Assembly (NCBI RefSeq): GCF_947500045.1
Contig: NZ_CANMQQ010000009.1
Location: forward strand, 62,001 to 126,000
Length of the DNA stretch: 64,000 nt
Source: an uncultured Ruegeria sp.
GTDB lineage: Bacteria; Pseudomonadota; Alphaproteobacteria; Rhodobacterales; Rhodobacteraceae
Direction of reading: 5' to 3'
Shown here: positions 9,696-30,029 of the stretch, piece by piece
Layout of the letters: each line of letters begins with the position of its first letter
Numbering within the stretch: position 1 is the stretch's first letter
Notes under the pieces: model-generated
What the model was told of the DNA's origin: nothing
Database searches by the model: none
Seen by the model: the letters and a program-made list of their open reading frames with translations, nothing else
Position numbers and translations under genes: made by a program

Positions 9696-9808
9696 GGGGC
9701 AAGCTCCTTTGAACGATGTGATTAGCGGGGAGTGCCTTGAGCCTCAAGCGGATTTGCGTTTGCGGTCGAGTAAGCGCCGCCCAGTGGGCGACGCGATTAG
9801 ACAGAAAA

Positions 9809-10249: not shown

Positions 10250-10288
10250 TATGATCTCCTTTCAGCTTGGTGGCCTGCTGGCGGTCGT

Positions 10289-10310: not shown

Positions 10311-10383
10311 TTGCCAGCCTGGCATGACACGTCACCCAAGGCGATCACGAGCAAACACATCGTAACACCGATGCGCTGCACGT

Positions 10384-10567: not shown

Positions 10568-10628
10568 ACGAGGCAGACCTTGCCAAGGACACATCGCTTC
10601 TGCAAGAGAAATTAGTAGGAGGATCAAC

Positions 10629-11240
10629 ATGCACCCCTACCCAGCCTTTCGCGCCGAGGATCGCGCACGTCACATCAGTTTTGCCCGAGAGCGTGCCTTT
10701 GGCGTCTTGGCAGTGTCCAGTGAGGGTGCGCCGTTGATGAGCCATGTTCCGTTTTTGTTGTCCGAAGACGGCACGGTGGCTGAACTGCATCTGGTGCGGT
10801 CGAATCCGATAGTGCAGGCGTTGCGTGCAACGCAGGCGGCCAAGATCGCGGTACAAGGGCCGGATGGCTATATCTCTCCTGACTGGTATGGGGTCGCGGA
10901 TCTGGTTCCGACCTGGAACTATGTCGCGGTGCATCTGACCGGGCGCCTGGAGTTGCGCCCGCAGGACGAGCTGTTGGATCTATTGAAGCGGCAGTCGGCG
11001 TTTTACGAAGCGCGTTTGCTACCCAAGCCGCCCTGGGTGACCGACAAGATGTCGGATGCAGCTTTAGCGCGGATGATGCGGATGATCGTGCCGTGTCGGA
11101 TGCAGGTGGATGACATTCAAGGCACCTGGAAGCTGGGCCAGAACAAACCCGACGCCGCGCGGGAGGCGGCGGCAGAGCATGTACTGGACGGGATCGGCAG
11201 CGAGACCGCGCAATTGGCGGATCTGATGCGAGGTGTTTAG
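10629..11240 (+). CDS. PaiB-family FMN-binding protein
   Basis: 203 residues, matching the PaiB/FMN-binding split-barrel family (named after Bacillus PaiB, a negative regulator of protease genes). Visible family segments are MHPYPAFR at the N-terminus, the barrel strand SHVPFLL, and SPDWYGVADLVPTWNYVAVH. Late in the protein GTWKLGQNK is characteristic. A strong Shine-Dalgarno sequence (TAGGAGGA) precedes the ATG. It is divergent from the riboswitch-ribH unit, so two flavin-related genes face away from each other. A regulatory role here is unproven. Confidence 0.88.
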   Translation: MHPYPAFRAEDRARHISFARERAFGVLAVSSEGAPLMSHVPFLLSEDGTVAELHLVRSNPIVQALRATQAAKIAVQGPDGYISPDWYGVADLVPTWNYVAVHLTGRLELRPQDELLDLLKRQSAFYEARLLPKPPWVTDKMSDAALARMMRMIVPCRMQVDDIQGTWKLGQNKPDAAREAAAEHVLDGIGSETAQLADLMRGV

Positions 11241-11252
11241 GGCACGCCGACT

Positions 11253-11705
11253 TTAAGATTCAGGGGCATTGAACGTGGCCAGATAGGCGGCAATATCCTC
11301 GGCGCCTTTGCGTAGCTTTACACTCATATTCGGGCGGGCGGTGTCGTCATCCAGGTATTCCTGGATGAAACTGATCGGGTCTTGAGAATAGGCTGCGATG
11401 TTTTCTTCGGTCCACACCAGCCCTTCTTGACCAGCGCGGATCATGTCATCGGTGAACATACCGATCGGCAGACGCTCGCTGCCGTTCAGATAGTCGTATT
11501 CGGTCCCGGCGACGCGGCCAACAACACCATAGAGATTCGGCCCGGTGATACCGCCTTTGACCAAAATCTCGCCAACTTTGATGATCGCATGGCAGGATGA
11601 GCACCGGTTATAGAGTTTCCCGCCTTTCGCCGGATCACCGGCTGCTATCGCTTGTAATGGGGACAGAAGCACCAGAAGAATCGTGGTTGCTGCAATCTTT
11701 GACAT
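11253..11705 (-). CDS. Periplasmic class I cytochrome c
   Basis: 150 residues from the ATG at 11705, where GGAGA is 8 nt upstream; a longer frame to 11768 lacks signal-peptide logic. A Sec signal peptide covers about 1-22 (cleavage after AIAA). The haem-binding motif CSSCH is at 35-39. A Met in RPNMSVKL is a plausible sixth ligand. Long inserts after the haem site resemble cytochrome c2/c550-like proteins. It is divergent from petABC and probably shuttles electrons around the bc1 complex (inference). Confidence 0.85.
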   Translation of the reverse strand: MSKIAATTILLVLLSPLQAIAAGDPAKGGKLYNRCSSCHAIIKVGEILVKGGITGPNLYGVVGRVAGTEYDYLNGSERLPIGMFTDDMIRAGQEGLVWTEENIAAYSQDPISFIQEYLDDDTARPNMSVKLRKGAEDIAAYLATFNAPES

Positions 11706-12192
11706 TGGAAATCTCCGGCTGGACGGTGGTTGCCCTTGGCCTGTCACGCATTCATGCAAATAGTTCAATCGAATTCCCGTTGAAATGCATGATTATGAAA
11801 TATCTATTTTATATTAATAATTTAAATGTGTCAGAGACGTGTTTAACAGGAAGAGATAGTGGCAAACCCAGGGCGGGATTCCGGGTAAGGCCAGCGGTTC
11901 CAACGGCACGTGAACTTGCTCTGGTTCGGGTATGATCGAGGGCGGGCAGATGGCGAATCACGCTTATCCAGCGCACACCAGACCGCTGCCACAAAAGTCA
12001 AAATCTGCATTTGATATTGAAATTTTGCCCTCTCACAGTGACATGAATGCTTAGATGCGGCGTATTGCGCGTTTAAGAGCGCTGGACGAACTCTATTCTC
12101 CCCGATAGATACCCCCTCTAAGACACCGCATTCCCTGCGGTGCGCGAGCTATATGCCCGTTCGCGGGCGCCAGACAATTCGGAGATAACCTC
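11706..12192. other. Intergenic region between cytochrome c and petA
   Basis: About 490 bp without a convincing gene. It holds an AT-rich patch at 11786-11830. Two small hairpins lie just before petA: CACCGCA/TGCGGTG (12124-12142) and GCCCG-TTCG-CGGGC (12155-12168). The divergent promoters of the cytochrome c gene and petABC must be here. I could not assign a clear -35/-10 pair. Confidence 0.5.
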
Positions 12193-12777
12193 GTGTCCCA
12201 CGCTGAAGACCACGAAGGCACCCGCAGAGATTTCCTCTACTACGTCGCTGGCGGCGCAGGTGTCGTTGCGACGGGGGCGGCTGTATGGCCCCTCGTTAAC
12301 CAGATGAACCCATCGGCAGACGTTCAGGCGCTGTCCTCGATCCGTCAGGATGTCAGTGGGGTTGAACCGGGCACGCAGCTCACCGTGAAATGGCTGGGTA
12401 AACCGGTATTCATTCGCCACCGCACCGGTGCTGAAATTCAGGAAGCGCAGGGTCAGGATGCGGAAGGTCTTGACGCCTTGCCCGATCCGCTGGCCCGTAA
12501 CTTCAACCTGAATGCCGATGCACCGGCAACCGATGCCAACCGTGTCATGCCCTCGCCGGAAGGCGAAGCGCCGGGCGCATGGATCGTTCAGATGGGGGTT
12601 TGCACCCACCTGGGTTGTGTGCCTCTGGGCGACGCTGGTGACTTTGGTGGATGGTTCTGCCCCTGTCACGGCTCACACTACGACCTTTCCGGTCGTATCC
12701 GCAAAGGCCCCGCGCCTGAGAACCTGCCTATTCCGCCTGTGGAATGGGTGGACGCCACAACCATCAAACTCGGCTAA
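12193..12777 (+). CDS. petA: Ubiquinol-cytochrome c reductase Rieske iron-sulfur subunit
   Basis: Rieske protein of the cytochrome bc1 complex (194 residues); it takes electrons from ubiquinol and passes them to cytochrome c1. The start is GTG at 12193 with GGAG 8 nt upstream. The twin-arginine-like N-terminus is followed by one membrane anchor (about 14-37). The cluster-binding motifs are CTHLGC at 137-142 and CPCHGSHY from 156. Ligands are therefore C137, H139, C156 and H159, with C142 and C158 forming the disulfide. First gene of petABC. Confidence 0.97.
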
Positions 12778-12791
12778 GGGAGACCCAACTT

Positions 12792-14123
12792 ATGTCCGGA
12801 ATTCCCCACGATCATTACGAGCCGAAGACAAATGGCGAGAAGTGGCTGAACAGCCGTCTTCCGATTGTCGGCCTGCTGTATGACACCCTGATGATTCCCA
12901 CGCCCAAGAACCTGAACTGGTGGTGGATCTGGGGCATCGTTCTGGCGTTCTGCCTGGCGTTGCAGATTGTTACCGGCATCGTTCTGGTGATGCATTATAC
13001 TCCGCATGTCGACCTGGCCTTTGCCAGCATCGAACACATCATGCGCAACGTAAACGGCGGCTATATGCTGCGCTACATTCACATGAATGGCGCGTCGCTG
13101 TTCTTTGTTGCGGTGTACATTCACATCTTCCGTGGCTTGTTCTACGGCTCGTACAAAGCCCCGCGTGAAATCACGTGGATCATTGGCATGCTGATCTATC
13201 TGATGATGATGGGCACCGCCTTCATGGGCTATGTTCTGCCCTGGGGTCAGATGTCCTTTTGGGGTGCGACCGTGATCACCGGCCTGTTTGGCGCGATCCC
13301 ATTTGTTGGCGAAGCAATCCAGACCTGGCTGCTGGGCGGACCCGCGGTGGACAACGCCACGCTGAACCGCTTTTTCTCGCTGCACTACCTGCTGCCGTTT
13401 GTGATTGCGGCGCTGGTGATCGTGCATATCTGGGCCTTCCACACCACCGGCAACAACAACCCCACGGGTGTTGATGTCCGCAAAGGGTCGAAAGCCGAGG
13501 CCGAGAAGGACACTCTGCCGTTTTGGCCCTACTTCGTGATCAAGGACTTGTTCGCCCTGGCGGTTATTCTGGTCGTGTTCTGGGCAATCGTTGGCTACAT
13601 GCCGAACTATCTGGGCCACCCGGACAACTACATCGAAGCAAACCCGCTGGTCACACCCGCGCATATCGTTCCCGAATGGTACTTCCTGCCGTTCTACGCG
13701 ATCCTGCGTGCCTTCACCGGTGAGGTCTGGGTCGTTCAGTTCGCCAGCTTCATCACAGGCGGCATCATCGACGCCAAGTTCTTTGGTGTTCTGGCGATGT
13801 TTGGTGCGATCCTGGCCATGGCGCTGGCGCCGTGGCTGGACACGTCGACCGTGCGTTCGGGCAAGTATCGCCCGATGTTCAAATGGTGGTTCTACCTGCT
13901 GATCATCGACTTCTTTGCCCTGATGTGGCTGGGTGCGATGCCCGCAGAAGAGCCCTATGCGACCTTCTCGCTGATCGCGTCGGCCTACTGGTTCGCCTAT
14001 TTCTTCGTGATCCTGCCGATCCTTGGCGTGATCGAGAAACCTCTGGCCCTGCCCGAGACCATCGAAGAAGACTTCAACGCGCATTATGGCAAGGCTGACG
14101 CCGATGCCACGCCGGCCGAGTAA
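12792..14123 (+). CDS. petB: Cytochrome b of the bc1 complex
   Basis: Membrane core of ubiquinol:cytochrome c oxidoreductase (443 residues), with eight transmembrane helices and both quinone sites. I choose ATG 12792 with the AGGGAG site just upstream, giving the usual [11 protein letters not shown] start. Haem-ligand His pairs are visible in [19 protein letters not shown] and in [19 protein letters not shown]. The PEWY motif of the quinol oxidation site is intact ([10 protein letters not shown]). It lies 14 nt after petA and 17 nt before petC. Confidence 0.98.
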
Positions 14124-17380: not shown

Positions 17381-17456
17381 GGGCCGTTAGCTCAGTTGGT
17401 AGAGCAACTGACTTTTAATCAGTGGGTCGCAGGTTCGAATCCTGCACGGCTCACCA
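17381..17456 (+). tRNA. tRNA-Lys (anticodon TTT)
   Basis: A 76-nt tRNA with CCA encoded. The acceptor stem GGGCCGT/ACGGCTC pairs with one G-U. The D arm (GCTCAGTTGGTAGAGC), the anticodon arm CTGACTTTTAATCAG with TTT in the loop, and the T arm GCAGGTTCGAATCCTGC are all intact. An AT-richer accessory region starts directly behind it, as is common at integration hotspots. Confidence 0.97.
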
Positions 17457-17871
17457 CTTTTTTCAAATGGAAGATGACACGAAGTTCGTCTCTTTTGACA
17501 AGAGTTTGTCGCTTTTATGGGAAACTCTTGGGCTTTGCATCATGCGTCTCATGGGTGCACTGTTAAGCTCGGTGCCGACATCTGGATTCAAATACAGAGC
17601 GCCTATGATGTAGCGCATGCTTCTTGCGATGTGGATGTGTCAGGTATTTCGACATTGAAGACTGCCAAGTGAATGCGGCCGGGCGTGTTCCCAAGCACAT
17701 GTCAAGCGGAGGGTTGATAAAACCGCAGCTCCACGCCCCCATACTCAGTAGAAAAACCGCCTTGAAGGACCTGTCACCTGTCTGACAATCAGGCTATGCC
17801 TAGGGTTGTATTTAATAATTGGCTCGCACCAGCTCATTGTACGGTGCGGGCATAAAATTTGGCAGGTTGCG
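17457..17871. other. Gene-free stretch between tRNA-Lys and the helicase gene
   Basis: About 415 bp with no supported gene, no integrase and no recognisable terminator. I saw no copy of the tRNA 3' end elsewhere in the accessory region. The promoter of the helicase gene presumably lies in the last 100 bp. The Shine-Dalgarno sequence is a modest CAGG about 7 nt before ATG 17872. Confidence 0.5.
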
Positions 17872-20800
17872 ATGAATAGTGGGTTCCATGAGATTCTAGG
17901 TTACTGGCGCGCGTCGTTGGCGGATGGTGCATTGGGGCGGGGTCGCTTCAGGCAGCGGGATCGGAAGGATTTCATCGAACTGTCGAAAGACACGCTGCGC
18001 GATGGAGTGCTGCCTAAGAACCAGGTTCGCAATGTTTTTGAAGGACAGAAGCCGGATACCAAGGTAGTAGACGTACAAATCTGGCCGATGGTCATGGCTC
18101 GGAGAACTTCCCACGGTGCGACTATATCCAATGGTTCTCCAGAAATCGTCGCACCTGTAGTTACAGAGGCGACCGTCGATAGAGACGGTAACATTCGCCC
18201 ATCCCGAAACGTCATTGCGAGAGACGTGCTGAAGCCACTCCCCAACGATGTTTTTTCGCTCGGCAAGGTTGAGGATTTCGATACCTTTCTTTCAGCGTCG
18301 CCCTTCTCGCCAGACGAAAACTCCCCTGTTTGGGACCAATACTTAAAACACTGTCGTGCAATGCTCGATGCCGTTTCTCCCGGGTGGCCATCTGACGATG
18401 ACAATTATCTCTCTGCCGGCGTGGGATTTATGGAGGTTTCCGGTGAGGCTGCCGCAGCTATTGCGCAAGTTATCAGCCTCTATGACACGCTGCTTGGTGA
18501 AAAACACAAAGCGCCGCTGTTAGAAAATCTGGCCGGATCGCCCTCAACCAAAAAGGAGCTTTCTCCTCAGACGGAAGCGAACTTCATAAATCGACTGGGA
18601 CATGCCAGCGATGAATTTCCGCTCGCAGATCATCAACGTCAGGTTCTTTCATATCTCTCAACCGGAAAACCCAGCGATGTGCTTGCTGTCAACGGGCCTC
18701 CTGGAACAGGCAAGACGACAATGCTCCTGTCGGCCATTGCAGATGCGTGGGTTCGCGCAGCGCTGGAAGAAAGTGCTCCACCGGTCATCGTCGCGGCGTC
18801 CACCAATAACCAGGCTGTAACAAACATTATCGGCGCGTTCGGCAAGGACTTCTCCGAAGGCGAAGGCCCATTCGCGGGTCGTTGGTTGCCTGGCCTCAAA
18901 AGCTACGGGTTGTTTCTTCCAGCAAAATCAAAAGAGGCCGAGGCTGCTCGCCGGTATCAAACTGAGCGGTACTTCAATGAACTAGAAAGCCATGACTATG
19001 TTCCCCGCGCCAGAGACGCTTTTCTGGAGGCAGGGAAATCTGCATTTCCGGGCCTTGAAAATCCAGATGTGAAAGAGATCGTATCTTCCTTACACAAGCG
19101 GATTGCTGAAGAGGTTGCAAAACTGTCCGATGCGGACAAGTCACGGAAATGGGTTGAGGAGGCAACATCGAAAGTTGTTAACCTATTGGGCGACGATGCC
19201 GAGGCAACACTGCTGCAGGTGGAAAAAGCAATGCAGGATGGCGCAGCAGAACTTGAGCGCCACAAGACTTGGGAATCCGGGTGGACCAAACATCAGGCTG
19301 ATGAATCTGTCTTTTTAGTAATGTTCAACTTTCTTCCATCTGTGGCTCAAAAAAGAGTGATGAAAGGGCGTGTCTCCCTGGAAACCATCGGCTGCACGCT
19401 GGATTTCTCCGATGTCAGTTCGGTTGAAAGTTTGGGGAATAGCCTGCGAAATGCGGTTCGAATTGCACAGGAGGCTGCTAAAACCACCAAGTCCAGATAT
19501 GAGGCAGCACGGTCAGCGTTAGAAAATCTGAATCAGGCGAAGAGAGCATGGGCGCGCGCAACGGAAAATCTTGGTGCGTCGGCCGTTCCAGCAACTGATG
19601 CATTGGACGTCGATAGATTTGCCGATTGCCACGCCCGTTTTCTTCTTTTCCGATTGGCTTGCCACTATTGGGAGGGGCGGTGGCTTCTGGAAATGGAAGA
19701 TAGCTTAGACGATATCGTGGCGTCGCATCGGAAAACCGGGCGGAAAACAATCGAACCACGCTGGCACCGTCGTATGATGCTGACACCCTGTGCTGTTTCC
19801 ACGTTTGCGAGCTTGCCAGGCAAAATGAGCTTTGGTCTGAAGTCTGGCGGTGAATGGGGCACAGGCTATTTGTTCGACTTCATCGACTTGCTGATTGTTG
19901 ACGAAGCCGGGCAAGTCTTGCCGGAGGTTGCGGCGCCCTCGTTTGCATTAGCGAAGTGCGCCTTGGTCATTGGGGACACCCAGCAGATTGAACCAATCTC
20001 ATCTGTGTCTAAAGCAGTCGATATTGGCAATCTGCAAAGTGCCGGTTTTCTAAAAGAGACCTATGCCGAGGCCGATTTGGCGACACTGTCAGATACGGGC
20101 ATGCGTAGTGTTGACGGTAGTGTAATGCGCCTCGCCCAGCAAGCGTGCGTCTATGAGCCCTACCCGGAATTAGAGCGAGGGCTTTACCTGTTCGAGCATC
20201 GGCGTTGCTTTGACGAAATCATCAATTTCAGCAACAAACTCTGCTACAAAGGATCGCTCAAACCGATGCGAGGCTGTGCTCCCGAGGGTCGCGCTGTACC
20301 GTCGATGGGGTACCTACATATTGATGGTATGGCTTTAAGCTTCGGCGGCAGCCGCGCAAACGCGACTGAGGCTGCAACAATTGCAGACTGGCTCGCAGAA
20401 AATCGGCAGGATCTTGAAGGCCAATACAACAAAAAACTGGAAGACATAGTCGGTGTCGTCACGCCCTTCGGGCGGCAGGTGCAAGAAATCAAACGCGCTT
20501 GTGCCGAACGAGGCATTGACGCGAAAATGACCGTTGGCACGGTTCACTCGCTTCAAGGGGCTGAGCGACCAGTCATCCTGTTCTCACCGGTCTATTCCAA
20601 ACATGCCGACGGGCATTTCATCGACATGTCACCAAGTATGCTGAATGTGACCGTATCACGTGCAAAAGACAGCTTCCTTGTCTTCGGTGACATGGATGTA
20701 TTTTCGTCGGCTGCGAAGGGTACGCCCAGATCGGTCTTGGCTGAATGTCTGTTCTCTCAGAGCGATGGCGTGCTTGAGTTTACTGCGCAGCCGCGCTCCG

Positions 20801-21288
20801 ATCTTCAGGATTCAAGTCACCCGCTTTCGACATTGAGAGACGCAGAAGAACACGATCGGTTCTTGAAAAATGCCCTGTCCACAGCCCGTGAAATGACCAT
20901 CGTCAGCCCGTGGATCATTGCCTCAACAATGAAACGTGCTGGGTTACTGGATGCTTTCCAAGGTGCGGTGGCGCGGGGTGCAGAAATCGATGTCATCGCA
21001 GATCCTCTGTTGAACCAGTTGAAGTACGATGATGGCGTAACACAGCTAGAAGCAGCAACATCTGCACTGCAAGATGTAGGTGTACGAGTCCACGAAGTGC
21101 GTCAGCTGCACAGCAAGATTGTCATAGTGGATGCCAATCGGCTTTGCATCGGCTCCTACAATTGGCTGAGCGCTGACCGGAAGGGCCGATATGCGCGCCA
21201 CGAAACGTCGATCGTGTACAATGGTTCGCACCTTCAAAGCGAGATTGAGGTCATCAAGCAAAGCCTAGGTGCTCGCGAAAAGCGCTGA
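17872..21288 (+). CDS. SF1 (UPF1-like) helicase fused to a PLD-family nuclease; candidate type II Mokosh defence protein
   Basis: 1138 residues from ATG 17872. An N-terminal region of about 260 residues has no domain I recognise. The SF1 helicase follows: a Q-motif-like FPLADHQRQVL, Walker A GPPGTGKTT (275-283), Walker B IVDEAGQ (Asp677), GDTQQIEPIS, LFEHRRCF, TVHSLQGAE and NVTVSRAKD (from 925). About 400 residues separate Walker A and B, as in COG1112-type helicases. After about 990 comes a phospholipase-D-like domain with one HKD motif, HSKIVIVD (His1080) and GSYNWLSA. Helicase plus C-terminal PLD in one chain is the described plan of Mokosh type II (MkoC). It stands alone next to tRNA-Lys in AT-richer DNA. 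Other COG1112-PLD proteins remain possible. Confidence 0.85.
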   Translation: MNSGFHEILGYWRASLADGALGRGRFRQRDRKDFIELSKDTLRDGVLPKNQVRNVFEGQKPDTKVVDVQIWPMVMARRTSHGATISNGSPEIVAPVVTEATVDRDGNIRPSRNVIARDVLKPLPNDVFSLGKVEDFDTFLSASPFSPDENSPVWDQYLKHCRAMLDAVSPGWPSDDDNYLSAGVGFMEVSGEAAAAIAQVISLYDTLLGEKHKAPLLENLAGSPSTKKELSPQTEANFINRLGHASDEFPLADHQRQVLSYLSTGKPSDVLAVNGPPGTGKTTMLLSAIADAWVRAALEESAPPVIVAASTNNQAVTNIIGAFGKDFSEGEGPFAGRWLPGLKSYGLFLPAKSKEAEAARRYQTERYFNELESHDYVPRARDAFLEAGKSAFPGLENPDVKEIVSSLHKRIAEEVAKLSDADKSRKWVEEATSKVVNLLGDDAEATLLQVEKAMQDGAAELERHKTWESGWTKHQADESVFLVMFNFLPSVAQKRVMKGRVSLETIGCTLDFSDVSSVESLGNSLRNAVRIAQEAAKTTKSRYEAARSALENLNQAKRAWARATENLGASAVPATDALDVDRFADCHARFLLFRLACHYWEGRWLLEMEDSLDDIVASHRKTGRKTIEPRWHRRMMLTPCAVSTFASLPGKMSFGLKSGGEWGTGYLFDFIDLLIVDEAGQVLPEVAAPSFALAKCALVIGDTQQIEPISSVSKAVDIGNLQSAGFLKETYAEADLATLSDTGMRSVDGSVMRLAQQACVYEPYPELERGLYLFEHRRCFDEIINFSNKLCYKGSLKPMRGCAPEGRAVPSMGYLHIDGMALSFGGSRANATEAATIADWLAENRQDLEGQYNKKLEDIVGVVTPFGRQVQEIKRACAERGIDAKMTVGTVHSLQGAERPVILFSPVYSKHADGHFIDMSPSMLNVTVSRAKDSFLVFGDMDVFSSAAKGTPRSVLAECLFSQSDGVLEFTAQPRSDLQDSSHPLSTLRDAEEHDRFLKNALSTAREMTIVSPWIIASTMKRAGLLDAFQGAVARGAEIDVIADPLLNQLKYDDGVTQLEAATSALQDVGVRVHEVRQLHSKIVIVDANRLCIGSYNWLSADRKGRYARHETSIVYNGSHLQSEIEVIKQSLGAREKR

Positions 21289-21315
21289 CAGTCCCACGAA
21301 ATCACTCTTTTTACT

Positions 21316-21340
21316 CACCCTGCCGTGCGCTGGCAGGGTG
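21316..21340 (+). terminator. Stem-loop after the helicase-PLD gene
   Basis: A perfect 9-bp stem CACCCTGCC/GGCAGGGTG with a 7-nt loop, followed by GTTTCAC. It starts 27 nt after the stop and is a plausible terminator, indicating a single-gene transcription unit. Confidence 0.7.
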
Positions 21341-22076
21341 GTTTCACGCTTTCTGTGATCTTAGCGGATTGATCTGGGAAAGCGACATACTTTCTGTCGA
21401 AAAGCGTCAGTCTTTTGTCGACGTCTTGAGGTTAACCTTATGTAATATAAAGGTACTTTTAAGATTCAGGTGCCAAACTCCGTATCATCTTACACCAAAT
21501 ATAAAATCAATACCTTACACCAAACAGGTGCGAAGTATCGCATCGTGCTAACGCTCTAACTTTAATCTCTGGGGGACATATGGGAGACACAAAGTGTGTT
21601 AGTGGTACTTTGTCGCTTTTCAGTCGCTCCACTCCACATCATCAGTTCAAGCGTTCCACCGGCAAGAAAAGGTCCAATAAGTTCCCTCGAACAGCGGCTT
21701 GTATGCTTGGCCGTGCTGGTGCGATTTCTTCTGGGAATCGCGAAGCTGCAATCACGCCGATATATCGCAATGCCGCAGGATTATTGGTTCGTCATCAAGG
21801 AATGGTTGAAGCGTTACGAAGTACCTGCGCCGCTAAATCTGCCTGTGTAGCCTGAGCAAACGAGGGCTATTGCTTGTTTCATAGGGGCCTGAAGGGGCGA
21901 TCGAAGGAGTCTAGGCTAGCCCTCACAAAGGGATACACGGAGCTGTCAGTGTAATTGGCTCGGTAACTCAAAGGTAACCAAAAAGGTTTGGCCGCGATAT
22001 TGGGGAGCCCCCTTACTTCTGTATGGACTGCTCAAGGGCGGCGGGGCACGTTCGAAATGGCGATGACGTATTGTCA
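21341..22076. other. AT-rich gene-poor stretch
   Basis: About 735 bp. An 11-nt direct repeat CTTACACCAAA occurs at 21489-21499 and 21514-21524. A short frame at 21580-21855 (91 residues) has a fair GGGGGA ribosome site. An overlapping frame in another register (21596-21850) is equally long. Neither resembles a family I know, and composition does not favour either. I see no convincing gene. Confidence 0.4.
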
Positions 22077-22577
22077 TCAGTTGGCTGGATGGCTCCGTTT
22101 TTTCGCTTCTTTGAGGGCCGTCGAGATACCACGTGGAGAAAACGTGAAGCTGCGCCGCAGTGTTGGAGAGCCCGCGAAGAAATAGGATACCTCCACCTCT
22201 TCCCCTTTGTTGTACGCATTTAACATCTTCTGAGACAGCCCCATGTTAACTTGGCAATGTGTAGGGGCGCAAAACTGGAGATTATATTTTAGACTAGGTT
22301 GCCCATCAATCGATACAGTTACACCTTTCCCTAGATCCAAAGTTGTCTGCAATTGCAATGCCAGTCCGGCAACTGCTCCTTCTTGGTCCGCTGGAAAACC
22401 AACTATGTTCGCAATGTTCGTACCCTGATAATTGATATTTTGACTTGCCACACATTTAGACGTTTGCCTTTCGCAAAGAATGCTCCAATCAGCAACTCTG
22501 GCAACCTTCTTAGGTTTTGCCTCGGCGGGCCCAATGGCAGCAAAGCAGACAGCGGCAATCAAAAAGGTCTGATACAT
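22077..22577 (-). CDS. IalB-family (invasion-associated locus B) periplasmic protein
   Basis: 166 residues from ATG 22577, where a Sec signal peptide begins (YQTFLIAAVCFAAIGPAEA). A longer frame up to 22742 adds a non-coding-looking stretch. The mature part has the IalB pattern: an early W-x3-C with the next Cys seven residues on (WSILCERQTSKC), a second Cys pair in FCAPTHCQV, and the late GSPTLRRSFTFSPRG. IalB proteins were named for Bartonella invasion but are common in free-living alphaproteobacteria; function unclear. The ribosome site is weak, and it lies in the accessory region. Confidence 0.75.
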   Translation of the reverse strand: MYQTFLIAAVCFAAIGPAEAKPKKVARVADWSILCERQTSKCVASQNINYQGTNIANIVGFPADQEGAVAGLALQLQTTLDLGKGVTVSIDGQPSLKYNLQFCAPTHCQVNMGLSQKMLNAYNKGEEVEVSYFFAGSPTLRRSFTFSPRGISTALKEAKKRSHPAN

Positions 22578-22990
22578 AATTAACTTTCGTTGAGACAACT
22601 GAATTTTTCCATGTTTCGTATCAAGTATCTCATGGCTGGGCCAGAGCTGACGGGACAGTATGGGCAGCGCTGAATTGTTCGATACAAAAAGTAACAAAAT
22701 CACAGGCGCGTGGGCAGATTTTGCATCATCCACACCCTTCAATCAGCTTTTTAACTCACGAGCCGCACTTACATGCCTACCAATAGCGTTCCTCAAGAGT
22801 TAGGATGCGCGACTTCGCATCTCGTGCTTGTTCGCTTGGTTCGCTTTGCTAGGGCGGTGGCCGCCACCCGTACCGTGCATCCGTGAGAAAAACCCATTCC
22901 TATGTATCGAACTCCTCCAATTGGTCGGGATAACCTCTGAGACCCTTAATTTCAAAATCTTCAAACATTTCTCAAACGTGTCTGTCGTCA
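22578..22990. other. Gene-free accessory DNA
   Basis: About 410 bp without a supported gene. Reading frames are short and have no recognisable product. The stretch around 22800-22890 is richer in G+C than its flanks and may be a relic of an older insertion. Confidence 0.35.
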
Positions 22991-23302
22991 ACGGGATTAC
23001 AAAACTGGGCGGATGCGTTGGCAACACTTTCGGCCCTGCCGCAGGTTCATTGCAAACTCTCGGGCCTTGGAATGTTTGATCACGACTGGACCGCTGAAAG
23101 CGTCTCGCCCATCATTTCAACCTGCTTATCGCAGTTTGGCGCCGATCGCTGCATGTTCGGATCGAATTTTCCGGTCGATAGTCTGACTTCAACTTACGAA
23201 GAAGTTGTATCCCGATACCAATACCTCCTCCCGGCTTCGTATCATGACGACGTGTTCCAGAATACGTCGAAACGATTCTATCATATTGAGAATAAAAACT
23301 AA
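22991..23302 (+). pseudogene. Remnant of an amidohydrolase (amidohydrolase_2 family), C-terminal part only
   Basis: The frame from about 22991 to the stop at 23302 reads like the C-terminal third of a TIM-barrel amidohydrolase: NWADALATLSALPQVHCKLSG, then GLGMFDHDW and RCMFGSNFPVDSL (the conserved late-strand Asp), and a final RFYHI. Upstream sequence does not continue the family and no start with a ribosome site is evident. It is therefore a truncated relic of a catabolic gene. Confidence 0.65.
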
Positions 23303-23352: not shown

Positions 23353-23577
23353 TCAGCGACCGACACCATACATCGGATTTGAATTTTGCAGAGGGGTTGG
23401 TGAGGGGGTAATGACCAACCCCTCTGCAAGGGGGATATTCGGATCGGCGAAACGATCCGTTGAAAGCAGACTATTCCAAGCCATCCGCCCCGTATATTGG
23501 GGGTTCCCCGTAGTAGGAAAAATTAATCTTCCAGACACATTCCGGACATCTGGTGCCGATACCAAGCAAACACGGCG
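23353..23577 (-). pseudogene. Possible remnant of an FAD-dependent monooxygenase
   Basis: A minus-strand frame without a plausible start contains LVSAPDVRNVSGRLIF followed by NPQYTGRMAWNSLLSTDRF. This resembles the middle of salicylate-hydroxylase-like flavoproteins, where a GADGxxSxVR-type segment is followed by a YTGxxAWR-x-LxxxDR segment. Key glycines are lost and flanking parts are absent. The match is by eye and short, so it is tentative. A 15-bp hairpin overlaps its 3' part. Confidence 0.3.
23387..23428. repeat. Large perfect stem-loop in accessory DNA
   Basis: TGCAGAGGGGTTGGT and its exact complement ACCAACCCCTCTGCA form a 15-bp stem around a 12-nt loop. No T-run follows on either strand, so it is not a classical terminator. 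A second, 7-bp hairpin CGGATCG/CGATCCG follows at about 23440-23459. Confidence 0.6.
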
Positions 23578-23659: not shown

Positions 23660-24649
23660 TCAGGCGAGGCTGACAACTGTTCCCTGTTTCAGCGAAGTAT
23701 CTGCCGCGTCTGCCAGAATCTGTGCGCGCAATCCGTCGATGATTCCAGGCGAAAGGGGCTCAGACCCGCTCATCGCTGTGATGAAATGAGCCATCTCGGC
23801 GCGATAGGCGCTCTCATAGCGCTCCAGGAAGAAATGCTGGGCCGGGGCTTTGCGGAATCCCAGCGGGGTCGCAATTTCGACCGTATTTTCCAACATGTTT
23901 TCCGCGCGCAACAGACCTTTCTCACCATGCACCTCGATGCGTTGGTCATAGCCATAGCTGGCGCGACGCGAATTTGAGATCTGGCAAATCTTGCCGCTGG
24001 CTGTGGTCAGGGTAACGGCAGCTGTATCGACATCTCCGGCTTTGCCAATCTCGGGATCGACGAGCGATGACCCGACGGCATATACGCTGACCGGTTCTTC
24101 GCCCAGCAGGAAGCGAGCCATGTCGAGATCGTGGATCATCATATCGCGGAACAACCCGCCGGAACTTTTGATGTAGCTGATCGGTGGTGGTGAGGGGTCG
24201 CGGGACAGGATGGTGACGATCTCGACGTTTCCGATTTCGCCGTTGGTTATGCGGGATTGGATATTAGCAAAACTTGGGTCAAAGCGGCGGTTGAAGGCGG
24301 TCATAAAGGGCACGCCTGTGGCCTCGACCACTTTGATACAGTCGCGGATACGGTCGGCAGACATATCGACCGGTTTTTCGCAGAAGATCGCTTTGCCTGC
24401 GTTCGCAGCTTGGTGAATCAGGTCGTAATGGGTGTCGGTCGGGGTTCCGATGACCACCGCATCGACATCCGTGCTTTCGATCAGGTCTTCCGCCGGCAGC
24501 ACGTTTGCGCCGGTTTTGTCAGCCAGTGTCTGGGCGGGTTCGGCAAATGCGTCGGCCACAGCCGTGACCCGCGCGCCGTCAATCTGCCCGATCGAGCGCG
24601 CATGCACCTGCCCGATACGCCCGCAACCAAGAAGCCCGATATTCAGCAT
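23660..24649 (-). CDS. iolG: Inositol 2-dehydrogenase (Gfo/Idh/MocA family)
   Basis: NAD-dependent oxidation of myo-inositol to 2-keto-myo-inositol, the first catabolic step. It has 329 residues: a Rossmann fold at the N-terminus (GLLGCGRIGQVHA), catalytic Lys in CEKPVDM, and the Asp/His pair in MMIHDLDMARFLLGEEP, typical of IolG. It is the last gene of the minus-strand iol operon. Its ATG comes one base after the stop of the aldolase gene. Downstream is the decayed accessory region. Confidence 0.93.
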   Translation of the reverse strand: MLNIGLLGCGRIGQVHARSIGQIDGARVTAVADAFAEPAQTLADKTGANVLPAEDLIESTDVDAVVIGTPTDTHYDLIHQAANAGKAIFCEKPVDMSADRIRDCIKVVEATGVPFMTAFNRRFDPSFANIQSRITNGEIGNVEIVTILSRDPSPPPISYIKSSGGLFRDMMIHDLDMARFLLGEEPVSVYAVGSSLVDPEIGKAGDVDTAAVTLTTASGKICQISNSRRASYGYDQRIEVHGEKGLLRAENMLENTVEIATPLGFRKAPAQHFFLERYESAYRAEMAHFITAMSGSEPLSPGIIDGLRAQILADAADTSLKQGTVVSLA

Positions 24650-24650
24650 G

Positions 24651-25481
24651 TCATGCCCCTTTGAATGCCTGCAGAACCCGGCGTGTCGCCTCGACCACCG
24701 GTTCGTGTGTCTCTTTCAGGATTTGAACGCGGTCGAACCTCTCTGGGTCGGTGTTCACGGCCTTGCGCAGGGCGTTCCCGAAGGCCATCCGCAGCTCGGT
24801 CCCGATGTTGAACTTGCAAACCTTAGACCCGCGCGCCAGCGCTGTGCGCTGCGCAACAGGGACGCCTGATCCACCGTGAATGACCAGTGGAACTTCGGTC
24901 ACGGCTTCGATGGCACGAATGCGGGCCTTGTCCAGACCGCCTTCTTTGTTCTGTTGCAAATGGACGTTGCCGACCGAGATTGCCATTGCGTCTACGCCAG
25001 TCTCACGGGCGAACCGTGCTGCCTCATCCGGGTCGGTCCCGTCTGAACCTTCACTGCCGGAATAGCCCACAAAGCCAATCTCTCCTTCACAGGAGACCCC
25101 GGCGGCATGTGCCCTCTCGGCGATCGCCGCGGTTTCTTCAATGTTCTGGGCCAATGGTTTGCGCGAGCCGTCGAACATAACTGAGGTGAAGCCACTATCG
25201 ATAGCGACGCAACACTCTTCATGGGTGTAGCCATGGTCCAGATGGGCGACGACAGGAACGCTGGCCCCTTCGGCCAGATGGCGGAACATCTTGCCCAGAA
25301 CCGGCAGCGGCGTGTGTTCGCGGCAGGATGGGCCGGCTTGCAGGATGATGGGTACACCTTCGGCCTCGGCAGCAGCCACATAAGCGCGCATATCCTCCCA
25401 GCCCAGCGTCACCAGTCCGGCCACGGCATAGCCGTTACGCAGCGCGGATTGCAGCACGTCCGATAATGTCACAAGGCTCAT
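24651..25481 (-). CDS. iolJ: Class II fructose-bisphosphate-type aldolase of inositol catabolism (IolJ-like)
   Basis: 276 residues of the zinc-dependent class II aldolase family. Metal-ligand segments are VVAHLDHGYTHEE and VIHGGSGVP, with the ISVGNVHL segment between them; phosphate-binding KFNIGTELR is conserved. In the iol operon the likely substrate is 2-deoxy-5-keto-gluconate-6-phosphate, split to malonate semialdehyde and dihydroxyacetone phosphate. Assignment rests on context, since tagatose/fructose-bisphosphate aldolases look alike. The start overlaps the iolB stop (ATGA). Confidence 0.85.
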   Translation of the reverse strand: MSLVTLSDVLQSALRNGYAVAGLVTLGWEDMRAYVAAAEAEGVPIILQAGPSCREHTPLPVLGKMFRHLAEGASVPVVAHLDHGYTHEECCVAIDSGFTSVMFDGSRKPLAQNIEETAAIAERAHAAGVSCEGEIGFVGYSGSEGSDGTDPDEAARFARETGVDAMAISVGNVHLQQNKEGGLDKARIRAIEAVTEVPLVIHGGSGVPVAQRTALARGSKVCKFNIGTELRMAFGNALRKAVNTDPERFDRVQILKETHEPVVEATRRVLQAFKGA

Positions 25482-26335
25482 TTGAACTTGGCCACCATGT
25501 CCATGATGCCCGGAATCGTATGCAGCTGGGCTGCATGGGTCGGTTGGAAATACTGCTTTAGCGAGCGCTGGCTGAGGCCACCGAGGATGGTGAAATAGTA
25601 CATCTCATACCCCGGCAGAACCGCACAGGGGTGATAACCCTTGTCGATCATGATCGTTGAGCCATCCATGATGTGATAGGCGTCGCCCGGCTTGTTATCT
25701 TCACGCTGTAACATCTGGATGCCCGAGCCAAAGTTGGGCCGGAAGCGGAAATTATAGGTCTCGTCATGGCGGGTCTCGATCATCCCGCCTTCGTCGTCTG
25801 GGCGGTCGGTGTCATGTTTGTGACTGGGGAAGCCGGACCATCCGCCCTGACCCACGGTATAAAGCTCTGACACCAGCAGGCGGCCCACCTTGTCGTGGTG
25901 GTTTGCGCCAAGGATATGTTTGATCTTGCGATGGGTCTTGGTGTCGTCAGAGCCATATTGCACCAGATCCAGCTCTGGCACGCGCACGTCAAAAGGTTCG
26001 AGCACACGGTCATATTTTGCCCCGGCAATGAAAGTCTCAGTCTCGTCTGTCACGCAGGTGATGCGGACGTTGGCGCCGACGGGTACATAGACGCCCTCGG
26101 GCTCGCCATCCCAAACGTCGATTGTGCGGTTGCCCAAATTGGAATACACCGCGCCGTCCACGTCGACATCGACGGTGCCGGTTGCAGGTACGATGCAGGT
26201 CTCATATCCGGGCACGGCGTATTCGAACACCTCACCCTTTTTCAGTTTGACGATATTGAAATAGTTCAGCGGCACCAGTTCACTGTCGGCATCGACAATG
26301 GCTTTGTTCTGGTTGTCATGGGGCGCAATATGCAT
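25478..26335 (-). CDS. iolB: 5-deoxy-glucuronate isomerase
   Basis: Isomerises 5-deoxy-glucuronate to 2-deoxy-5-keto-gluconate. It has 285 residues of a bicupin; family segments include GGWSGFPSHKHD, with metal-binding His, DETYNFRF, and GYHPCAVLPGYEMYYFTIL near the C-terminus. The ATG has AAGGAG 7 nt upstream. It lies between iolC and the aldolase gene in the minus-strand operon. Confidence 0.95.
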   Translation of the reverse strand: MHIAPHDNQNKAIVDADSELVPLNYFNIVKLKKGEVFEYAVPGYETCIVPATGTVDVDVDGAVYSNLGNRTIDVWDGEPEGVYVPVGANVRITCVTDETETFIAGAKYDRVLEPFDVRVPELDLVQYGSDDTKTHRKIKHILGANHHDKVGRLLVSELYTVGQGGWSGFPSHKHDTDRPDDEGGMIETRHDETYNFRFRPNFGSGIQMLQREDNKPGDAYHIMDGSTIMIDKGYHPCAVLPGYEMYYFTILGGLSQRSLKQYFQPTHAAQLHTIPGIMDMVAKFK

Positions 26336-26347
26336 CTGCGTCTCCTT

Positions 26348-27325
26348 TCAGGTATCCGTTGGACCCGGGTGTTGGGCCAGAAAGTCGTCAAGCTGGGGCG
26401 TGGTCGGCATGGCCCCGGCGCAACCGGGCTTCGACACAACGATGGAGGCGCAGGCCGAGCCACGCAAAACCGCGTCGCGCAGGCCATGACCCGCCGCGAC
26501 CGAGGCTAGAAAGCCAGCCAGAAAACTGTCCCCCGCGCCGTTCGGTTTTACGGCAGTGACCGGGTAGATACCGGTGCGGATCTCTTGCCCATCGGTCAGA
26601 GTGATGGCCCCTTCGTGGCCCATCTTATAGATCACCATCTTGCCGTTGGCGGCCAGCTCGCGGGCTTTGTCCAACCCTTTTTCGATGCCACCGGCCATAA
26701 AGCCGAACTCTTCGTCATTGCCAACGATCAGGTCACTTTCGTTGCCTGCGCGGGTCAGAACCTCTGAGGCGACCTCCGGGGACGGCCAGCTATAGGGGCG
26801 GTAATCGATGTCGAATATGACAGGCAGACCAGCAGCGCGGGCGTTTTCGAACGCGCGGAACGTGGCCGAGCGCGAGGGATCCGACGCAAACACCGTGCCA
26901 GCAGTGATCAGGGCCGAGAACGCGCCATAGTCCACTACGTCCATATCCGCTTCGGTCACCTGAAAATCGGCGGCACCGTTGCGATAGATGACGTTCTGGA
27001 AGTCCTCGATGCAGCTTTCGTAGACAGCCAGAGAGGTCCGCGCCTCACCGCCCACCGCGCGGATATACCGCGTTTCCACGCCATAGTCCTGCAGCCTGTT
27101 CACACAGAACCGCCCCACCGCGTCGTCCGAGACCGAGGTGATCAGCGCTGCCTGACTGCCCAACTTGACCAATCCAGCGCAGATATTGGCGCTCGATCCG
27201 CCCAAATCGGCGCGAAACATCCCAGCGTCTTCGCTTTTGGTTCCGGCGGGATCGGCATACATATCCATGCCAGCCCGCCCGAATACTGCAAAGCGATTGC
27301 CTTTTATGCCTTCGATCAGAGTCAC
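26348..27325 (-). CDS. iolC: 5-dehydro-2-deoxygluconokinase
   Basis: PfkB-family kinase that phosphorylates 2-deoxy-5-keto-gluconate (325 residues). N-terminal GRAGMDMYADP and the glycine-rich DLGGSSANICAGLVKLG are typical of IolC. The C-terminal active-site motif reads KPNGAGDSFLAGFLA, with the catalytic Asp. The start is GTG at 27325, with GAGGGG upstream, overlapping the stop of the dioxygenase gene (GTGA). It is an unfused form, unlike the IolC-DUF2090 proteins of some bacteria. Confidence 0.95.
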   Translation of the reverse strand: MTLIEGIKGNRFAVFGRAGMDMYADPAGTKSEDAGMFRADLGGSSANICAGLVKLGSQAALITSVSDDAVGRFCVNRLQDYGVETRYIRAVGGEARTSLAVYESCIEDFQNVIYRNGAADFQVTEADMDVVDYGAFSALITAGTVFASDPSRSATFRAFENARAAGLPVIFDIDYRPYSWPSPEVASEVLTRAGNESDLIVGNDEEFGFMAGGIEKGLDKARELAANGKMVIYKMGHEGAITLTDGQEIRTGIYPVTAVKPNGAGDSFLAGFLASVAAGHGLRDAVLRGSACASIVVSKPGCAGAMPTTPQLDDFLAQHPGPTDT

Positions 27326-28161
27326 TTGCGCCCCTCGGTATTTCCTGCCCGGGCAGCATCCAGCACCTCGGGGTAGGGGTAGTTGAGGCCCAGCAATTGC
27401 CGCAGATCAGGGCTCGCCTGATCGAGGAAGTCCTGTGGTAGTGCTGCGGGCATGTCCTCCATCGGTTTGACCCATTTGGGCAGGTACTGGATCAGGATCG
27501 CGCTGCGGTCGTGATTGGCGTTGTTGGGCATCGCGCAATGCCATGTGACACCGTAGAACAGAGCGACGTCACCGGGTTCACCGGTCATCTGCTCGCAGTT
27601 TTCATAGAACTTATCTTCGGAGGTCGGATAGCGCAGTTCTTTCTGCGATCCGGGCACATAGCCGGTCGCGCCGCTTTCTACGGTGAACGGGTCCAGCAGG
27701 ACCGAAACCTGCGCGTTCATCGGAAATGATCCGTTCAGGCCGACAGGATGTGTTTCGGGGCTGTGAAAGTCCCAATAGGGATAGTCCACATGCGGTTCCT
27801 GCCCAGGACCACCCGGCAGGATGCGGTTGGCCGCGATTGAGCCCATGATGAACTCGGTTCCCAGAAACTTACGGAGGATTTTCATCAGAACCGGATGCGC
27901 GGCCATGCGGGAAAACACGTCGCCCTTACCCAGCAGGTTCCAGACCCGGCGCTGCAGGTTCAGCTTGCCATCCTCTTCCGCAGCACCTTGAAAGTGGGTC
28001 ACTTTTTCGGCCGCTGATTCAGAATGCTCCATGATGATGGCGCGCGCTTCGGCTATCTCCTCGGGCGTGAACAAGCCCGAGATGGCAACCGCCCCGCCGC
28101 CGTTCAGCAACTCTTCGACGATGGCGTCGGGATCGGCTGTTTCTGCTGTGAACCGTTTCAT
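27322..28161 (-). CDS. Phytanoyl-CoA dioxygenase family protein within the iol operon
   Basis: 279 residues of the PhyH branch of Fe(II)/2-oxoglutarate oxygenases. Iron ligands are probably the HVDYPYWD segment (H-x-D) and a late His in VTWHCAMPNN; an Arg near DRSAILIQYL would bind 2-oxoglutarate. I choose ATG 28161, which overlaps the iolD stop (TGATG). The frame extends to 28263, inside iolD, without a reason to start there. This enzyme is not part of the textbook iol pathway; its tight coupling to iolD and iolC suggests hydroxylation or demethylation of an inositol-like substrate (inference). Confidence 0.87.
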   Translation of the reverse strand: MKRFTAETADPDAIVEELLNGGGAVAISGLFTPEEIAEARAIIMEHSESAAEKVTHFQGAAEEDGKLNLQRRVWNLLGKGDVFSRMAAHPVLMKILRKFLGTEFIMGSIAANRILPGGPGQEPHVDYPYWDFHSPETHPVGLNGSFPMNAQVSVLLDPFTVESGATGYVPGSQKELRYPTSEDKFYENCEQMTGEPGDVALFYGVTWHCAMPNNANHDRSAILIQYLPKWVKPMEDMPAALPQDFLDQASPDLRQLLGLNYPYPEVLDAARAGNTEGRK

Positions 28162-30029
28162 CAGATGCCCTTGCGTTGTTTTTCGCGGGTGGTTTCCCAT
28201 TCGACATGAGCGTTGCGGACCTTTTCGTCCGCCGAGGTGTGGGGCGTTCCGACCTCCCACCACGTATGACCTTCGGTGGTCCAGCCGTCATAGGCGTCCA
28301 CATCCATCACGATCACATAGGTCTTGTCGCTGGCTTTGGCGCGCTTGAATGCCTCAGCCAGTTCCGCAGGGTTTGCGACCTTTTCGCTGGTTGCCCCCAT
28401 CGAGGCCGCGTGGGCTGTGAAATCAACGCCGAACGGTTCCGGGATGGTGGGGCAGTCTGCCAGCAAGTTGTTGAAACTTTCATTGCCGGTGTTGTTCTGA
28501 AGCTTGTTGATGACGGCAAAGCCGCCGTTGTCCAGCACCAGAACGATCAACTTCTTGCAGCTCAGGACTGATGAATAGATGTCCGAGTTTAACATCATGT
28601 AAGATCCATCGCCGCAGAAGGTGATGGTGTCCTTATCGGGCTCGCGTTCGGATTGGGCGATACGTGCGCCCCAGGCACCTGCGATCTCATAGCCCATGCA
28701 GGAAAAGCCGAACTCGACATCAACCGTGCCGATATCAAGCGTGCGCCAGTTGGCGGTAACCTCTGCGGGTAGGCCTCCGGCGGCGGCGACCACTCGGTCG
28801 CGCGCGTCACAAAGCTCGTTCACAACGCCGATGGCTTGCGCGTAGGAGTTCGGACGATTGCCGTAGGCGACGTTCTCGGCGACATAGGCATCCCATTTGC
28901 GCCGCTCGTCTTGCGCCAGAGATACCCAATCGGTCGGCGCGGTATAGTCATTCGCCTGTGTTAGAGCCTGAAGAGAAAGTTTCGCATCCCCAACAACCGG
29001 CAAGGACATATGCTTGACCGCATCATGGCGCGCCGCGTTGATCGAGATGAACTGGGCGTCCTTGGCAAAGGCGGTCCATGATCCGGTCGTGAAGTCTTGA
29101 AGCCGCGTGCCCACGGCGACAATCACATCCGCCTGTTCCGCAATCGCGTTGGCACTGTCTGAGCCGGTCACACCAATCGGGCCGATGTTCAGCGGATGGG
29201 TCGCCAGCATGTTTGCACGGCCCGCGATGGTTTCGACCACTGGAATCTGATGTTTTTCCACAAATTCGGTCAGCTCGGTGACGGCCTTGGAATACTGTAC
29301 TCCGCCACCGGCGATGATCATTGGGCGTTTCGCGCCCATTAAAGCCGCCGCAGCATCTTCGATTTCATCCGCATCAGGTGACTGGCGGCGAATGCGATGT
29401 ACCTTCTTTTCAAAGAACTTCACCGGGTAGTTATAGGTCCACCCCTGCACGTCCTGCGGCAGCCCGAGGAAAGCGGGACCACAATCGCCCGGGTCCAACA
29501 TGGTTGCGATGGCGGCGGGCAGAGATTGAATGACCTGCGCCGGATGCGTGATGCGATCCCAATAGCGGCTGACAGGTTTGAACGCGTCGTTCACGCCAAA
29601 GGTTGGATCGTTGTAGTTCTCCATCTGCTGCAGAACCGGGTCGGGCAGGCGAGTGATGAATGTATCTCCGCACAGCATCAGCATCGGTAAACGATTGGCA
29701 TGGGCCAGTCCGGCAGCAGTCAGCAGATTCGCGGTGCCCGGCCCGGCGCTGGCGGTGCAGAACATGAATCGCTGACGCAACCACTGCTTGGCATAGCCTG
29801 ATGCAGCGAATCCCATGCTCTGTTCGTTCTGTCCGCGATACAGGGGTAGTTCGTCCCGCATCGAATGAAGAGCTTCGCCCAGACATGTCACGTTGCCATG
29901 TCCGAAAATCCCGAAACCCCCGCCACATAGGCGATATTCCTGTCCGTCAATCTCGATGAACTGGTTCGATAACCAGCGAATGATCGCCTGCGCTGTTGTC
30001 AGGTAAACGGTGTCGTGTTGCGCGGACAT
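28161..30029 (-). CDS. iolD: 3D-(3,5/4)-trihydroxycyclohexane-1,2-dione hydrolase
   Basis: Thiamine-diphosphate enzyme that opens the inositol-derived ring to 5-deoxy-glucuronate (622 residues). The N-terminal ThDP domain has the catalytic Glu region with RGQNEQSMGFAASGYAKQ. The central domain carries GVTGSDSANAIAEQAD. The C-terminal ThDP-binding motif begins GDGSYMMLNSD near residue 470 and continues to a DNGGF segment. First gene of the minus-strand operon, with AAGGAG 9 nt before the ATG. A LacI-type operator lies 77 nt upstream. Confidence 0.96.
   Translation of the reverse strand: MSAQHDTVYLTTAQAIIRWLSNQFIEIDGQEYRLCGGGFGIFGHGNVTCLGEALHSMRDELPLYRGQNEQSMGFAASGYAKQWLRQRFMFCTASAGPGTANLLTAAGLAHANRLPMLMLCGDTFITRLPDPVLQQMENYNDPTFGVNDAFKPVSRYWDRITHPAQVIQSLPAAIATMLDPGDCGPAFLGLPQDVQGWTYNYPVKFFEKKVHRIRRQSPDADEIEDAAAALMGAKRPMIIAGGGVQYSKAVTELTEFVEKHQIPVVETIAGRANMLATHPLNIGPIGVTGSDSANAIAEQADVIVAVGTRLQDFTTGSWTAFAKDAQFISINAARHDAVKHMSLPVVGDAKLSLQALTQANDYTAPTDWVSLAQDERRKWDAYVAENVAYGNRPNSYAQAIGVVNELCDARDRVVAAAGGLPAEVTANWRTLDIGTVDVEFGFSCMGYEIAGAWGARIAQSEREPDKDTITFCGDGSYMMLNSDIYSSVLSCKKLIVLVLDNGGFAVINKLQNNTGNESFNNLLADCPTIPEPFGVDFTAHAASMGATSEKVANPAELAEAFKRAKASDKTYVIVMDVDAYDGWTTEGHTWWEVGTPHTSADEKVRNAHVEWETTREKQRKGI

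Follow-up and report, generated by a model that had tools for sequence, protein, structure and literature searches.

A Mokosh type II gene in a probable Tn7-like mini-transposon behind tRNA-Lys in an uncultured Ruegeria

We analysed a stretch of 64,000 nucleotides from an uncultured Ruegeria sp. (assembly GCF_947500045.1, contig NZ_CANMQQ010000009.1, positions 62,001 to 126,000; hereafter the window, numbered from its first letter) that carries mkoC, a gene encoding a helicase fused to a phospholipase D (PLD) domain. Very probably, mkoC is a Mokosh type II anti-phage gene that stands alone, and no other gene is intact in the Tn7-like mini-transposon, or deletion derivative, that carries it and lies 11 bp behind a tRNA-Lys(TTT) gene. 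By analogy with its family, the helicase would sense phage nucleic acid and the PLD nuclease would cut it.

Results and Discussion

Family identity and architecture of MkoC

The PADLOC model of MkoC (PDLC03924) aligned residues 1-1134 of the protein with model positions 1-1134 of 1136 at 1263.5 bits, and the next-best models matched only parts of the chain (MkoA, 96.6 bits, in the helicase part; MkoB, 48.4 bits, at the C-terminus). The MkoC model was also matched by all 19 proteins of our alignment (A1), which comprises the window protein and 18 relatives with full or near-full frames (that of L007 lacks the 3' end); copies that are split or partial, among them L005, L011-L013, G030, G258, G123 and G135 were kept outside it. 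Judged by this match along the whole protein, the window protein is a Mokosh type II member of an already known family, an assignment that a sequence-only reading of the region had put forward as a candidate. Mokosh type I consists of two separate proteins, and type II works without a second gene. In the window mkoC stands alone as one chain in which the helicase part precedes the PLD domain, no mkoA- or mkoB-type gene adjoins it, and it is single copy in its genome. The protein differs from type I in this single chain, its helicase and C-terminus matching parts of the type I models. With type II, described in the literature as a helicase and a PLD nuclease in one chain, it shares whole length, domain order and motifs, and it differs only in its mini-transposon setting at tRNA-Lys.

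The frame opens with an ATG at 17872 and its stop codon ends at 21288, so the coordinates, plus strand and length of 1138 residues given in the sequence-only reading were right. The ATG occupies alignment column 1, where 90% or more of the 19 rows have methionine; because it matches this first column, the longer frame starting with TTG at 17806 is unnecessary. Pfam placed PF13086 (residues 254-463) and PF13087 (775-941), the two parts of a UPF1-like superfamily 1 helicase, and PF13091 (1014-1126) on the chain in that order, all above cut-off, with the PLD-like domain PF13091 at 35.1 bits against a cut-off of 27. Invariant in the window protein and its 18 relatives are the Walker A motif GPPGTGKTT (275-283), D677-E678, G889-T-V-H, Q895-G-A, N925-V and S929-R-A of the helicase and H1080-S-K1082 and G1094-S-x-N1097 of the PLD domain. 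The helicase motifs and the one-HKD PLD domain of the sequence-only reading are confirmed, the PLD domain by both Pfam and fold search. The helicase profile reaches UPF1, DNA2, SEN1 and SMUBP-2, which share the superfamily 1 helicase motifs; the window protein differs in a long helical insertion between the Walker motifs. These helicases are not known to have a PLD domain or the MkoC N-terminus. Fold matches of the PLD domain include the one-HKD nucleases BfiI and Zucchini as well as SauUSI (14-16% identity in structural hits), which share the C-terminal fold and differ in their fusion partners. Structure alignments held 11 rows each.

Some observations count against a straightforward nuclease assignment. 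Two of the 19 alignment rows have a replacement at the HKD-motif residue D1087, which the other 17 retain. TrmBL2, FAM83, PLD lipases, vaccinia F13 and human PLD entries reach better E-values than BfiI, Zucchini and SauUSI, so the fold alone does not prove a nuclease. The full-length structure model is poor (mean predicted local distance difference test score, pLDDT, 63.5; predicted template modelling score 0.36), and the relative placement of helicase and PLD domain is not obtainable from it; the PDB hits include no solved Mokosh structure. The model of the N-terminal region is of modest confidence (mean pLDDT 67.1), and this region found no match in the PDB at E up to 0.001 (best 0.22). The suggestion in the sequence-only reading that it could be a new sensor module is rejected, the region being a constant part of the MkoC model that is present in all 19 aligned proteins.

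The closest relatives of the window protein come from Thalassobius (L002, 93% identity), Roseovarius (L003, 91%) and a Rhodobacteraceae metagenome-assembled genome (L004, 90%). The whole-gene ratio of nonsynonymous to synonymous rates (dN/dS) is 0.098 against L002, 0.109 against L003 and 0.138 against L004, and mkoC is under purifying selection. Regional dN/dS is lowest in the second helicase part and the PLD domain (0.03-0.07), followed by the first helicase part (0.08-0.09) and the N-terminus (0.10-0.19), and highest in the insertion at residues 366-640 (0.20-0.27); these estimates derive from few changes, three related pairs and the Nei-Gojobori method only, and their ranking is usable while the values are not. 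The pattern fits a working enzyme with a variable part inside the helicase. Coordinates are collected in Table 1.

Table 1. Positions of mkoC, its regions and the features of the surrounding element in the window
Feature	Position	Strand	Basis
tRNA-Lys (anticodon ttt), attachment site	17381..17456	+	ARAGORN
Left copy of candidate 5-bp target duplication, TCAAA	17463..17467	.	sequence
Left end of Tn7-like mini-element, 11 bp behind tRNA	17468..17488	+	L002 right-end query, 3 mismatches
Last 35 codons of small helix-turn-helix gene, complete upstream of L002 mkoC	17565..17672	+	translations
mkoC, 1138 residues, Mokosh type II	17872..21288	+	PADLOC PDLC03924, 1263.5 bits, residues 1-1134
N-terminal region, residues 1-249	17872..18618	+	no Pfam match; covered by MkoC model
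Helicase core, first part, residues 250-365, including Walker A 275-283	18619..18966	+	Pfam, alignment
Helical insertion, residues 366-640, fastest-evolving	18967..19791	+	secondary structure of model; dN/dS 0.20-0.27 (for ranking)
Helicase core, second part, residues 641-980	19792..20811	+	Pfam PF13087 at 775-941
PLD domain, single HKD motif (H1080, K1082, D1087), residues 981-1138	20812..21285	+	PF13091 1014-1126, fold search
G+C-rich hairpin 3' of mkoC, possible weak terminator	21315..21341	+	fold; not called by terminator scan
Right end, inverted relative to left end	21474..21494	-	L002 right-end query; L002 DNA match stops at 21494
Right copy of candidate target duplication, CCAAA	21495..21499	.	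sequence

Proposed mode of action

Sensing of phage RNA or of a replication intermediate, followed by PLD cleavage, appears to us the most likely mode of action. The UPF1-like motor would load onto phage-derived RNA or onto an intermediate, single-stranded or RNA-DNA, that arises during infection, movement powered by ATP would then bring up or activate the C-terminal PLD nuclease, and the nuclease would destroy the bound nucleic acid. The substrate cannot be named more closely, because UPF1, DNA2, SEN1 and SMUBP-2 act on RNA, DNA or hybrids. In known one-HKD enzymes the active site is common to two chains. Since each MkoC chain carries one HKD motif, a dimer is expected: the active site would form between two chains, and the working unit would be at least dimeric. 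For phage recognition, the fast-evolving insertion at residues 366-640 is a stronger candidate than the N-terminus, which is more conserved.

What the literature offers on Mokosh varies. The relevant passage of PMC11291487 has Mokosh degrading viral transcripts; the corresponding part of a later review (PMC12926258) lists the mechanism as unknown, among systems that range from abortive infection to genome defence; and a table of PMC10286901 has a row on functional phage proteins, e.g., polymerase or helicase, in which Mokosh appears. Abortive infection, in which the activated PLD nuclease would cut both host and phage nucleic acid and the infected cell would die or stall, is possible, if doubtful. 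It has its place in the range covered by the review excerpt, and a helix-turn-helix gene of antitoxin type formerly adjoined mkoC in the element, which is at most a hint; the degradation of viral transcripts in the passage of PMC11291487 would instead mean direct clearance, and the sequence decides neither way. Under either mode, phage protection by the window copy is what its family would predict.

A probable Tn7-like mini-element at tRNA-Lys

The borders of the element carrying mkoC were recognised through L002. The DNA match with L002 covers window positions 17570-21494 (89.9% identity), that with L003 17688-21477 and that with L004 17754-21289. Upstream of mkoC, L002 has tniB (PF05621), tniQ (PF06527, with a match over several frames) and a small helix-turn-helix gene that we take to be HigA-like (weak Pfam match to HTH_31, 19.8 bits, below the cut-off of 27). 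Both tniB and tniQ also stand beside mkoC in L007, and a tniQ fragment lies ahead of a decayed mkoC in L011. The terminal 21 bases of the L002 right end, read inward, are found in exactly two places in the 64-kb window, at 17468 (+) and at 21474-21494 (-), with 3 mismatches each, in opposite orientation and against a shuffle expectation of 0.00. The right-hand match follows from homology with L002; the left-hand match lies outside the homology and is therefore independent. These inverted ends begin TGG... at 17468 (+) and TGT... at 21494 (-), in keeping with the TG(T) of Tn7-like elements. The flanks TCAAA and CCAAA, a candidate 5-bp target duplication, are equal at 4 of 5 positions, and the uninterrupted loci of two genus members, G001 and G021, read CTTTTTCCAAA at the insertion spot, i.e., CCAAA. 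Bounded in this way, the mini-element spans 17468-21494 (4,027 bp). The earlier description of a stand-alone gene in AT-richer DNA behind a tRNA holds in that the gene is alone, ARAGORN confirmed the tRNA, and the G+C content is 0.48-0.53 in seven 1-kb bins between 17 and 24 kb (0.56-0.60 in neighbouring bins); what it missed is that the gene sits inside a transposon remnant. The sequence CTTACACCAAA occurs twice in the window, at 21489-21499 (right end plus duplication) and at 21514-21524, and the second copy may represent the last bases of an older element at the same site.

In the portion of PMC8649781 dealing with Tn7-like transposons that carry defence cargo, TGT-type inverted ends, insertion after a tRNA and the cargo itself are alike, and the 5-bp duplication has a candidate counterpart in the flanks; the window element differs in having no transposition genes. 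This lack is among the points that tell against a transposon origin. No transposition gene (TnsA/B/C, TniQ) was found in 17468-21494, and no TniQ of this kind in the genome. Of the 10 MkoC loci L002-L011, just four (L002, L004, L007 and L011) have an end-like sequence when at most 4 mismatches are allowed; none was found in L003, L005, L006, L008, L009 and L010. With a limit of 3 mismatches, the first 21 bases of the L007 left end have no match in the window. Finally, a tRNA end followed by a window-type end was recovered in 1 of 394 family genomes, our own, and the exact arrangement is consequently rare. Matches at 4 mismatches also arise by chance (window 32876, L004 14589, L122 1901), so the L011 end match is weak. 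Because the transposition genes are absent, we file the structure as a mini-element or deletion derivative and not as a working transposon.

Other genomes place similar ends at the same spot. In L007, from an uncultured Roseobacter, the 3' end of tRNA-Lys is followed after 10 nt by a left end, a tniB fragment, an intact tniQ frame and mkoC, and its tRNA end and left end are 88% identical to the window over 108 bp. Within the genus, 2 of 52 other loci have the left end behind tRNA-Lys, G015 after 10 nt and G046 after 11 nt; behind this end lies a KptA/Tpt1 RNA 2'-phosphotransferase gene (PF01885) in G015 (L088 340-885) and a gene of the same cluster in G046 (L114). In another genus, L172 has tRNA-Lys(ttt), 11 nt and then TGTGGATTGTCACC, behind which (7593-13426) follow a 593-residue TniQ with a helix-turn-helix, TniB, an rve-core transposase and a TnsA-like protein, the last two scoring below cut-off (30.2 bits against 32.6 and 22.6 against 26.5). 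This gene set resembles a Tn7-like element that occupies the same position behind tRNA-Lys; its ends are unlike the window's, and a search for its second end found none. TniQ relatives of the L007 type occur in 16 of 394 family genomes. Among six such places fetched, TniQ lies directly behind tRNA-Lys in L172, a tRNA-Lys is about 8 kb off on the other strand in L169, and no tRNA was found in the fetched stretches of the remaining four. Decayed mkoC pieces are located at dapF-tRNA-Lys in Cochlodiniinecator (L011, with the tniQ fragment between) and in a Pelagimonas metagenome-assembled genome (L013), where the piece may be an assembly mosaic.

On balance, we favour the view that a Tn7-like lineage of marine Rhodobacteraceae homes, via a TniQ/TnsD-type selector, to 10-11 nt behind tRNA-Lys(UUU) and ferries anti-phage cargo that includes mkoC, with KptA/Tpt1 behind the same end in a sister species; repeated loss of transposition genes would strand the defence gene in a tRNA-Lys hotspot common with integrase islands. 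The homing to tRNA-Leu treated in part of PMC10293859 takes place about 30-33 nt downstream, unlike the distance at tRNA-Lys. In the open-licence literature searched, a scope that most subscription journals fall outside, no description of a Tn7-like lineage homing to tRNA-Lys was found, and neither 'Tn7-like' with 'tRNA-Lys' nor 'Mokosh' with 'Tn7' was mentioned together, which is not proof of novelty.

The tRNA-Lys hotspot

The tRNA-Lys locus was fetched from 53 of the 54 genus genomes (G028, near a contig end, was left out; G047 gave 114 bases and G046 4.3 kb). A second tRNA-Lys 3' end lies downstream in 11 of these 53 loci, and an integrase protein cluster occurs in 9 genomes, with a phage-integrase domain in all 4 members tested. 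The counterpart of the window gene at 37498-38040 starts 38 bp behind tRNA-Lys in G001 and 33 bp behind it in G021, where the window has 20 kb between; in 11 of 52 other loci the block was seen in the part fetched. The activity of this site, the extra 20 kb and the chance occurrence of end-like matches at 4 mismatches would be expected if mkoC had arrived in an ordinary tyrosine-recombinase island and the transposon-like ends were chance or old DNA. We regard this as unlikely: the L002 end finds both borders at 3 mismatches, tniB and tniQ adjoin mkoC in two relatives, the window has no second tRNA 3' end, and the 21 kb behind the tRNA hold no convincing integrase remnant (best tblastn E 0.067). 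The last two findings lead us to reject such an island as the last vehicle; it may be an earlier event, with both routes acting in succession.

A scan for defence families covered 9 large proteins chosen by size from 190 neighbouring open reading frames of at least 240 residues. Clear matches were PD-Lambda-4_A and PifA (both G007, L093 9050-15216), type IIG restriction (G052, L099 2577-5840) and DRT3b (G045, L124 4051-6129); a weak PifA-like match was seen in G016, and four proteins had no match. The DRT3b stretch of G045 is closed by a second tRNA 3' end. Integrase clusters, Tn7-like ends and defence matches together indicate that the tRNA-Lys site takes both kinds of element, with cargo that includes defence genes.

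Distribution and horizontal transfer

An uninterrupted full-length MkoC match was present in 4 of 54 genus genomes (G000, G001, G034 and G050), and G030 holds a copy in two frames. The remaining genus matches are partial, in helicase or PLD regions, and such partial matches occur in 11 of 14 control genomes too. Of the four genus carriers besides our own, three have the gene on a different contig from tRNA-Lys, and in G001 the two are about 50 kb apart. In the family sample, 8 of 394 genomes, our own included, have an uninterrupted match over nearly the whole model. The window protein is only 58, 55 and 54% identical to the copies of its own genus, and the maximum-likelihood tree groups it with L002, L003 and L004 (100/100), apart from those copies. 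Since its nearest kin reside in other genera, its own-genus copies are distant and the tree supports this grouping, mkoC has been transferred horizontally between genera. Full-length relatives are also found on plasmids. Plasmid-borne MkoC relatives occur in Yoonia (63.8%), in Neorhizobium and Rhizobium (about 52% each) and in Agrobacterium (47.6%); among 733 plasmid records with matches, 50 have a single place that spans at least 80% of the query. The split copy of G030 (L086 8957-12261, minus strand) is flanked on both sides by transposase-like open reading frames. Six records of a phage collection match, one of which spans 80% or more of the query (33.4% identity), and five loci on viral contigs have a match.

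Carriage by a mobile element and by plasmids would also be expected if mkoC mainly served the transposon, guarding it against rival elements or plasmids and not the cell against phages. That seems quite unlikely: the window has lost the transposition genes and keeps mkoC intact, suggesting that the host benefits. A PLD-bearing housekeeping helicase for RNA or DNA repair, with no defence role, for which the resemblance of the helicase halves to UPF1, DNA2 and SEN1 and the purifying selection might speak, is highly improbable and, as a gene conserved at this locus, rejected, given the full-length MkoC profile match, the small number of full-length carriers in the genus, the movement between genera, the decay of mkoC in several relatives, and the presence of dapF-tRNA-Lys DNA in 54 of 54 genus genomes with MkoC beside it in one, our own.

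Transcription signals and neighbouring DNA

The sequence-only reading gave mkoC its own terminator. A hairpin is indeed present at 21315-21341 (11 pairs, -19.6 kcal/mol, z -1.53, with 13 of 200 shuffles equally good); no T-run follows it, and the terminator scan makes no call there. In a promoter scan at mkoC, promoter-like sites were no commoner than in shuffles.

The AT-rich stretch behind the mini-element, apparently foreign DNA in decay, holds an IalB-like gene (22077-22742, minus strand; PF06776) and a C-terminal amidohydrolase fragment (23018-23302, plus strand; positions 196-288 of the 289 in profile PF04909). The gap between this fragment and the gene that follows contains an inverted repeat (23386-23429; perfect over 16 bp, 12-nt loop), possibly a terminator. 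An apparent inositol catabolism and sugar ATP-binding cassette transport cluster, named from translations, extends from 23660 to 37461 and occupies most of the extra 20 kb relative to G001 and G021.

Implications

The window MkoC is a well-preserved and constrained example of a defence family on whose trigger and substrate published accounts differ. Its relatives at 90-93% identity, the decayed copies and the fast-evolving insertion form a natural set for the study of MkoC recognition. The transposon vehicle is the less ordinary part and raises the find somewhat above routine annotation. The setting suggests that one-gene immunity moves between genera by means of a Tn7-like element that homes to tRNA-Lys and sheds its transposition genes, leaving the defence gene behind.

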